NCBI RefSeq assembly: GCF_022341425.1
Contig: NZ_JABFUC010000014.1
Span: 1 to 64,000, forward strand
Direction: 5' to 3'
Length of the DNA stretch: 64,000 bases
Source: Billgrantia campisalis
Lineage (GTDB): Bacteria; Pseudomonadota; Gammaproteobacteria; Pseudomonadales; Halomonadaceae
A model generated the notes under the pieces. That model was not told where the DNA came from, did no database searches, and was given only the letters and a program-made list of their open reading frames with translations. The translations under genes and the position numbers were made by a program. Position 1 is the stretch's first letter; each line of letters opens with the position of its first letter. Below, one piece after another: positions 25,322 to 27,438 of the stretch.

Positions 25322-26506
<1,185 letters not shown>

Positions 26507-26548
26507 GCCTCTACTGTTGAAGTCAGTACGTCCCGCGGTAGCCGGTGG

Positions 26549-26568
26549 CCCCGCCCTTGTTGGCGGGG
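26549..26568 (+). terminator. Possible terminator after fadA
   Basis: The arms CCCCGCC and GGCGGGG enclose a 6-nt loop, 42 bp after the fadA stop. There is no real T run (TCACTT follows), so termination may be weak or Rho-assisted. Confidence 0.45.
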
Positions 26569-26586
26569 TCACTTGCGTTAGAGGCG

Positions 26587-26615
26587 TTGACGAGTGGGGT
26601 GATGAGCAATAAGAT
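26587..26615 (+). promoter_or_regulatory. Predicted sigma-70 promoter of the CCGSCH gene
   Basis: TTGACG (26587-26592) and TAAGAT (26610-26615) are separated by 17 bp, a near-consensus sigma-70 pair. The -10 hexamer is the first part of the inverted-repeat operator at 26610-26634, so a bound repressor would block it. Confidence 0.65.
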
Positions 26616-26634
26616 GCATTTTTTATGCATCTTA
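26610..26634. promoter_or_regulatory. NsrR-type operator (perfect inverted repeat)
   Basis: The arms TAAGATGCAT and ATGCATCTTA are exact reverse complements around a TTTTT spacer. The pattern AAGATGCATTT...ATGCATCTT matches the proteobacterial NsrR consensus (AAGATGYATTT then AAATRCATCTT). NsrR is an Fe-S repressor that leaves DNA when it senses nitric oxide. The site covers the -10 box of the downstream gene. The match rests on memory of the consensus. Confidence 0.7.
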
Positions 26635-26659
26635 TAGAATCCACTGCGAGGTGACGCTC

Positions 26660-26845
26660 ATGAGCCGGCTCAAGGACCTGTTCAAGAAGGACAAGGCAGA
26701 AGACAAGCAAGTCGTGCAGACCCAGGAGCCGGTTCCGGCAACAGCCTCGGGTTCGGACGCCAACGCGGGCGAAGCGGCCAGCGCCGAGGCAGAGCAGAAG
26801 GCGAAGCATGGGGAACCGGGCGTTTGCTGCGGATCCTGTCACTGA
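26660..26845 (+). CDS. Small CCGSCS-type motif protein (CCGSCH tail)
   Basis: A 61-residue protein with a basic amphipathic start (MSRLKDLFKKDKAEDK), a low-complexity Ala/Glu-rich middle, and the C-terminal cysteine motif GVCCGSCH. It resembles the small gammaproteobacterial proteins called 'CCGSCS motif protein', here with a final His. The three cysteines could bind a metal or an Fe-S cluster or react with NO. GAGG lies 9 nt before the ATG at 26660. The gene has its own promoter, NsrR-type operator and terminator, so it is a single-gene unit probably induced by nitrosative stress. The function is unknown. Confidence 0.75.
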   Translation: MSRLKDLFKKDKAEDKQVVQTQEPVPATASGSDANAGEAASAEAEQKAKHGEPGVCCGSCH

Positions 26846-26891
26846 CCCCGGCCAGCGCTTGGTAAGATAGCCATCGACGAACGATGAGCAG

Positions 26892-26922
26892 CGGGCATGC
26901 CCTTCCAGGCATGCCCGTTTTT
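26892..26922 (+). terminator. Rho-independent terminator of the CCGSCH gene
   Basis: Perfect 10-bp arms CGGGCATGCC and GGCATGCCCG enclose a 6-nt loop and are followed by TTTTT. It is 47 bp past the stop. Confidence 0.9.
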
Positions 26923-26951
26923 CCATGGGCGTGGGATGCGTCCAGTGTCAG

Positions 26952-26975
26952 GCTGCTGCGCTGCTGCGCTGCTGC
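26952..26975. repeat. Three tandem copies of GCTGCTGC
   Basis: Three head-to-tail 8-bp units (GCTGCTGC) are followed by GCTATAGC. They lie just past the stop of the flavodoxin-like gene. This is probably a slippage-prone microsatellite with no coding role. Confidence 0.7.
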
Positions 26976-26976
26976 G

Positions 26977-27438
26977 CTATAGCACGCCTGCCTCGAGCCC
27001 TGCGGCCAGATAGAGACCCAGTTCCTCCACCTGACCGACGAACTCTTCCTGCCATTCGCCGCGCAGGGTCAGGGGATGCTGGGCCCACTTCCAGCGCAGG
27101 CCGGTGACGATGCTTTCCACCGCGCGACGGGTGCCGGTGCCGTCACGGCCGGCGCGTATGTAGAGCGCACAGGGCAGGCCCTGTTTCTCCTCGAGGATCG
27201 GGTAGTAGCTGCGGTCGAAGAAGTCCTTGAGCGCCCCGCTCATGTAGCCCAGGTTCTCGGGGGTGCCGAGGAGGATGGCGTCGCAGGCACGCACGTCATC
27301 GGGGCCCGCTTCGAGTGGCGACTTGACCACGACTTCGACGTTATCGATATCCGGGTGCCGGGCGCCGCGCTCGGCGGCCTCGCGCAGCTTGAGCGTATTG
27401 GGGGAGGGCGCATGGGCCACGATCAGCAGTCGTTTCAT
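26977..27438 (-). CDS. Flavodoxin-fold NAD(P)H oxidoreductase-like protein
   Basis: A 153-residue flavodoxin-like protein. It starts MKRLLIVAHAPSPNTLKLREAAERGA, the phosphate-binding loop of the family. The FMN-binding loop is DAILLGTPENLGYMSGALKDFFDRSY, with GxxENxGxMSGxLKxFFDR typical of NAD(P)H-dependent FMN reductases. The start at 27438 is preferred; a 9-codon extension to 27465 is possible. It is divergent from the PEBP-family gene. Confidence 0.85.
   Translation of the reverse strand: MKRLLIVAHAPSPNTLKLREAAERGARHPDIDNVEVVVKSPLEAGPDDVRACDAILLGTPENLGYMSGALKDFFDRSYYPILEEKQGLPCALYIRAGRDGTGTRRAVESIVTGLRWKWAQHPLTLRGEWQEEFVGQVEELGLYLAAGLEAGVL

Follow-up and report, generated by a model that had tools for sequence, protein, structure and literature searches.

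A small CCGSCH-tailed protein gene of Billgrantia campisalis with an NsrR-type operator and a probable role in the response to nitric oxide

The locus described here is likely to be a one-gene nitric oxide (NO) response unit under NsrR, whose product would be a peptide with a disordered chain and a tail that holds a metal, an iron-nitrosyl or NO. It lies in the window, the whole stretch of 64,000 nucleotides of DNA that was analysed, and its features are collected in Table 1. Several observations are read directly from the sequence: the site itself, an NsrR-like gene in the same genome, the sites shared with other genes of that genome, the recurrence of this site in three other genera and its absence where NsrR is missing. 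Together they give strong support to the prediction that NO controls the CCGSCH gene through NsrR, and a part for the CCGSCH protein in the NO response is well supported. According to the proposed mechanism, NsrR, the gene for which lies elsewhere beside nosR, would occupy the palindrome covering the -10 box, blocking RNA polymerase, and damage by NO to the Fe-S cluster of NsrR would release it from the operator. The 61-aa protein would then be made along with NO reductase (norCB) and nosR. The peptide is envisaged as a mostly unfolded non-enzyme with an N-terminal helix that perhaps touches the membrane, and its KHGxxGxCCGxC tail would hold a metal or iron-nitrosyl, or take up NO as an S-nitrosothiol, thereby protecting the cell in an NO burst. 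Occupancy of the operator by NsrR and induction by NO are what we infer for the regulatory half of this scheme; the metal, iron-nitrosyl or S-nitrosothiol role of the peptide, its non-enzymatic nature and its contact with the membrane are suggested with much less confidence, the role of the tail being proposed from its residues.

Table 1. Features of the CCGSCH locus, in window coordinates
Feature	Position	Strand	Basis
-35 box TTGACG	26587..26592	+	consensus-promoter search; TTGACn kept in homologous loci
-10 box TAAGAT, the first hexamer of the operator	26610..26615	+	17 bp after -35 box
NsrR-type operator, 10-bp perfect inverted repeat with T5 spacer	26610..26634	.	pattern search, homologues
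23-bp 11-1-11 frame of the NsrR-type operator	26611-26633		
GAGG, likely ribosome-binding site	26648..26651	+	by eye
Gene for 61-aa CCGSCH-tailed protein (TIGR04101), including stop	26660..26845	+	ORF, profile, codon bias
Intrinsic-terminator-like hairpin (core 26892-26917) with T5	26892..26922	+	folding energy

The initial annotation had described a perfect 10-bp inverted repeat with a T5 spacer covering the -10 box of a near-consensus promoter, followed by a single gene for a 61-residue protein ending in CCGSCH and a strong terminator. The repeat is an exact palindrome to the letter (TAAGATGCAT-TTTTT-ATGCATCTTA, 26610-26634), and the gene is confirmed as an open reading frame of 61 codons with its ATG at 26660 and its stop at 26843-26845. 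At the likely ribosome-binding site, CTGCGAGG is kept across the nine aligned loci of the genus. A promoter is indeed present, in a layout shared by 26 of the 35 homologous loci, but with nine of 12 consensus letters (0.1 such promoters being expected by chance in a 600-bp stretch) the term near-consensus was slightly generous. A GC-rich hairpin followed by T5 is present as well, and the folding energy of region 26880-26930 is -26.6 kcal/mol (z -4.3), but a simple terminator scan of 26400-27000 listed none and missed the hairpin at 26892-26917, we think because the longest stem allows two of the Ts to be paired. Right after the terminator, at 26950-26976, there is a short run of CTGCTGCG-like units.

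The assignment of the palindrome to NsrR, also made in the initial annotation, is borne out by its letters, which show no mismatch at the fixed positions of the NsrR-type pattern; the published consensus is gATGyAT-N5-ATrCATc (Rodionov et al. 2005, PMC1274295). With up to three mismatches allowed, the NsrR-type pattern occurs once in the window, the mean for shuffled sequence being 0.01. YtfE is a di-iron repair protein, of another kind than the CCGSCS protein. The NsrR site of E. coli ytfE, listed as ChIP-seq-positive in Table 4 of the E. coli CFT073 paper (PMC5320621), has arms identical to those of the window operator at 18 of 18 positions; over 23 bases the two differ solely at positions 12-14, the spacer being TTTTT in the window and TTAAA at ytfE. 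The operator of one Aliivibrio locus (L048) equals the ytfE site as given there at all 23 positions (PMC5320621). A search of the 4.27-Mb B. campisalis genome with the strict 18-position pattern, three mismatches being allowed, gives three sites, which lie before the CCGSCH gene (0 mismatches), norC (1) and nosR (3), and the reversed pattern gives none. A relaxed pattern in which Y and R are allowed gives nine sites against one in the control, from which most 3-mismatch sites may be chance. The genes norC, norB, norQ and nosR of this genome were identified; the best match of norB is the NorB of a solved NO reductase, and the gene after norB carries a NorQ C-terminal domain. One of the 3-mismatch sites given by the relaxed pattern lies between a DUF454 gene and an nnrS gene beside the NsrR gene (L005:5269-5291, equivalent to G000:C22:328268-328290), and sites resembling it are among those listed for other genomes of the genus. 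A second NosR-like gene lies outside the window (G000:C45:208072-210063) and scores 659 bits, under the family cut-off.

The candidate regulator is an Rrf2 gene adjoining nosR, for which the best model is NsrR (153.3 bits, against 137.1 for RirA and 51.4 for IscR). This score falls below the NCBIfam equivalog cut-off of 182 bits, which is passed in just 12 of 34 carrier genomes; the Shewanella and Halomonas carrier genes fall below it. The protein has an Rrf2 domain (PF02082, 128.8 bits) and cysteines at positions 91, 98 and 104, which, in line with other NsrR proteins, would be the cluster ligands, and it is about 27% identical to the remaining Rrf2 genes of the genome. A report on Halomonas of the desiderata group places NsrR, NorR and NnrS genes near the nos cluster (PMC8014003).

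Homologues of the CCGSCH gene were compared at 35 loci in named genomes, comprising Halomonas/Billgrantia (16), Vibrio/Aliivibrio (12), Shewanella (3) and one each in Thalassomonas, Thalassotalea, Marinicella and an unclassified proteobacterium. The best 18-position match was taken within 200 bp upstream of each, and an operator with no more than three mismatches was found at 30 of the 35, in Halomonas/Billgrantia, Vibrio, Aliivibrio and Shewanella. The initial annotation had named absence of the operator upstream of homologues as the observation that would overturn it; it is instead widely present. With the published 14-position consensus, 25 upstream regions of 35 have at most two mismatches and 29 at most three, against 8 and 125, respectively, of 5964 overlapping control windows; in this count the start of L049 was misplaced (5 mismatches), and its 18-position placement gives one mismatch. 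The start of L040 is approximate, and those of L048-L050 varied between analyses. In several Halomonas loci the right operator arm is eroded, with up to three mismatches. TTGACn stands exactly 17 bp before the first operator hexamer at 26 of the 35 loci, distributed as 16/16 in Halomonas, 8/12 in Vibrio/Aliivibrio, 2/3 in Shewanella and 0/4 in the loci of NsrR-less genomes. In Vibrio comitans, V. inusitatus, V. superstes and V. halioticoli the site is 77-81 bp ahead of the start and has a -35 of TTGA type at a 16-bp spacing.

The presence of the operator follows that of the regulator. An NsrR-grade gene (at least 139 bits) is carried by 30 of 34 carrier genomes, the 34 being those of the 35 loci with L025 left out, and 29 of these 30 have an operator at three mismatches or fewer; the other, Shewanella UCD-KL12, has a degenerate site with 5 of 18 mismatches, placed as in S. 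benthica. The four genomes without an NsrR-grade gene (Thalassomonas, Thalassotalea, Marinicella and the unclassified proteobacterium PRO4) reach at most 43.4 bits, with genes that are presumably IscR-like, and are the same four whose CCGGC-tailed loci lack the operator (6 to 8 mismatches). The association between operator and NsrR gene (Fisher P 0.0001) is inflated by kinship, and the match may reflect one or two events, since the NsrR-less four are also the distant CCGGC branch, or two such branches, with a different promoter region. The conserved operator, its match with NsrR and the norC and nosR sites of the B. campisalis genome nevertheless make a role in the NO response well supported, and the likely part in nitrosative stress that had been proposed from the window is strengthened accordingly by the 30 of 35 loci and the co-occurrence of NsrR; the peptide itself may handle NO or Fe-S, as was also raised there.

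At three of the four NsrR-less loci (L045, L047 and L050), a perfect FNR/DNR-type box, TTGATnnnnATCAA, lies upstream, 72 to 139 bp away from the start; at the fourth, in Thalassomonas, even the best such match has two mismatches. Among the other 31 loci a perfect box occurs in V. halioticoli only, beside its NsrR site, and outside the upstream regions one was found in 328,312 bases. The motif was chosen after the loci had been seen, and two of the three box-bearing loci are near kin. A swap of NO/oxygen regulators at these loci, from NsrR to a CRP/FNR-type factor, is possible from these sequences.

The CCGSCS gene is found in 21 of 90 genomes of the genus, many of which are close kin, and in one of 369 genomes sampled across the class, that of B. 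campisalis itself. No relative was found in viral contigs and no match in plasmids at E 0.01. It follows fadA at 13 of the 16 named Halomonas loci and at none of the 19 others; the idea that it is a mere appendage of fadA was rejected on this ground and because it has its own promoter. Sixteen genomes were picked by hand, three carriers and 13 non-carriers, and the gene is absent after fadA in all 13. One of these (G012), which has nsrR and no norB or nosR match, still has the promoter and the left operator half after fadA, the CCGSC gene having probably been lost; in the 12 others the 900 bases past fadA are free of the CCGSC motif, and 400 bases contain no operator with fewer than six mismatches. 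No constant partner gene was seen around 18 loci, partly by eye. In three of the four Vibrio species whose site is 77-81 bp from the start (L039, L043 and L044) a DUF1971 gene lies directly 3' of the CCGSCS gene on the same strand, and no DUF1971 gene follows it in V. halioticoli.

The protein belongs to a family that had been taken to have no known function and that proves to be catalogued already, by name alone, as NCBIfam TIGR04101, "CCGSCS motif protein". It scores 55.5 bits (cut-off 28), covers profile positions 6-58 of 59 and ends with CCGSCH at its very C-terminus. Across 19 diverse members, M1 and KHGxxGxCCGxC are invariant and a Phe and a Val are nearly always present; the residues available in the tail are one His and three Cys, in many members followed by a His at the end. 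For the tail codons of 14 Halomonas sequences, 1092 pairwise comparisons gave 493 differences at the third position and 113 and 77 at the other two, and codon differences were synonymous in 393 cases and non-synonymous in 145; from this third-position bias the frame is translated and its tail constrained. Pfam has no family for the window protein, and the 19 members gave three one-member matches only (best E 0.01), taken as chance; no related solved structure was found at E <=10. AlphaFold models of the 19 sequences show a disordered chain with a low-confidence helix at residues 5-13 (mean pLDDT 57, pTM 0.16), and no enzyme fold was seen. The window protein has an N-terminal helical moment of 0.55, against 0.22-0.51 for five other members, which leaves membrane contact a guess. 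The tail is probably a thiolate ligand of a metal or of iron-nitrosyl/NO, judging by its residues; that it would bind iron-nitrosyl or NO specifically is a tentative refinement, with the chances clearly against it. A broader and equally speculative proposal is that the CCGSC proteins may form an unrecognised class of NO-defence peptides, disordered chains with a thiolate tail that would capture iron-nitrosyl or NO, produced only when needed under the NO-responsive control of NsrR or, in genomes lacking it, of a CRP/FNR-type factor.

Other readings accept control by NsrR and differ in what the protein would do. It might assist the denitrification enzymes through metal delivery to, or assembly of, NorCB or NosZ, and the genus comparison, in which norB was scored at >=78% identity (fragments counted), nosR over its cut-off and nsrR at >=58%, offers this reading some encouragement. 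There, norB is found in 21/21 carriers and 48/69 non-carriers (P 0.002) and nosR in 19/21 and 35/69 (P 0.0009), whilst nsrR, at 21/21 and 60/69 (P 0.11), does not by itself separate the carriers. The promoter remnant without a gene in G012 points the same way, as does a NorB at 54% identity in two Marinicella-like genomes, Marinicella and PRO4. The Shewanella carriers have weak NorB matches alone (24-29%, in two of three). However, none of the 12 Vibrio/Aliivibrio carriers has a NorB match in a search directed at NorB, with nosZ and qNor outside its scope, and the CCGSCS protein is for that reason no helper of denitrification alone; the reading is improbable. A metallothionein-like buffer of copper or zinc, needed as NO frees metals, would suit a short, disordered tail that contains three Cys together with one or two His, and is unlikely rather than far-fetched; no metal-resistance gene was recognised near 18 loci, mostly by eye.

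The peptide could alternatively be a RiPP-like precursor, its Cys tail modified by a maturase to give a ligand of NO or metal. A variable leader-like chain with a short invariant Cys tail has that appearance, yet no maturase was recognised among the neighbouring genes at 18 loci and we regard the idea as very unlikely. Least probable, by a small step, is that the palindrome owes its conservation to the promoter or to another regulator and that the gene is not under NsrR. Since the left arm shares bases with the -10 box, the needs of the promoter would suffice to preserve it, the right arms vary, and the B. campisalis NsrR scores under the NCBIfam cut-off; against this, the arms are those of the ChIP-positive ytfE site (PMC5320621, Table 4), like sites precede norC and nosR, and the site is absent where NsrR is absent. 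An NsrR-controlled unit whose peptide holds a metal, iron-nitrosyl or NO in its tail is the preferred reading. Through it TIGR04101, known by its motif alone, gains a first testable role, in the NO response, and the link rests on the match of operator and regulator in several genera, down to the genomes in which a missing regulator goes with a missing operator. Should the tail truly bind iron-nitrosyl, NO or copper, denitrifying and marine bacteria would have in it an NO-protection part of very small size, and such a tail could be made as a synthetic peptide for direct study.

Set against known systems, the window protein agrees with TIGR04101 in size and tail, in a full-length match, and nothing in its sequence sets it apart from the family; the NsrR-type operator is an addition to an entry that consists of a name only. 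The operator type is common to the window locus and the NsrR regulon of gamma- and beta-proteobacteria, to which norB is assigned in several beta-proteobacteria; the passages of that paper compared here name no CCGSCS protein (PMC1274295). No link between the CCGSCS/TIGR04101 family and NsrR was found in the literature searched, supplementary tables and RegPrecise lying outside its scope. In E. coli, NsrR controls yeaR and ygbA, according to the CFT073 paper (PMC5320621). YeaR and YgbA are, like the CCGSCS protein, small NO-linked proteins without settled chemistry. As far as tested, the CCGSCS protein has no sequence kinship with YgbA or with YeaR, and it matches no Pfam family. YeaR is a DUF1971 protein, of the family encoded next to the CCGSCS gene in the three Vibrio species. 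The TIGR04101 family and the NsrR regulons were thus each known already, and what is new within the searched literature is the connection between them.
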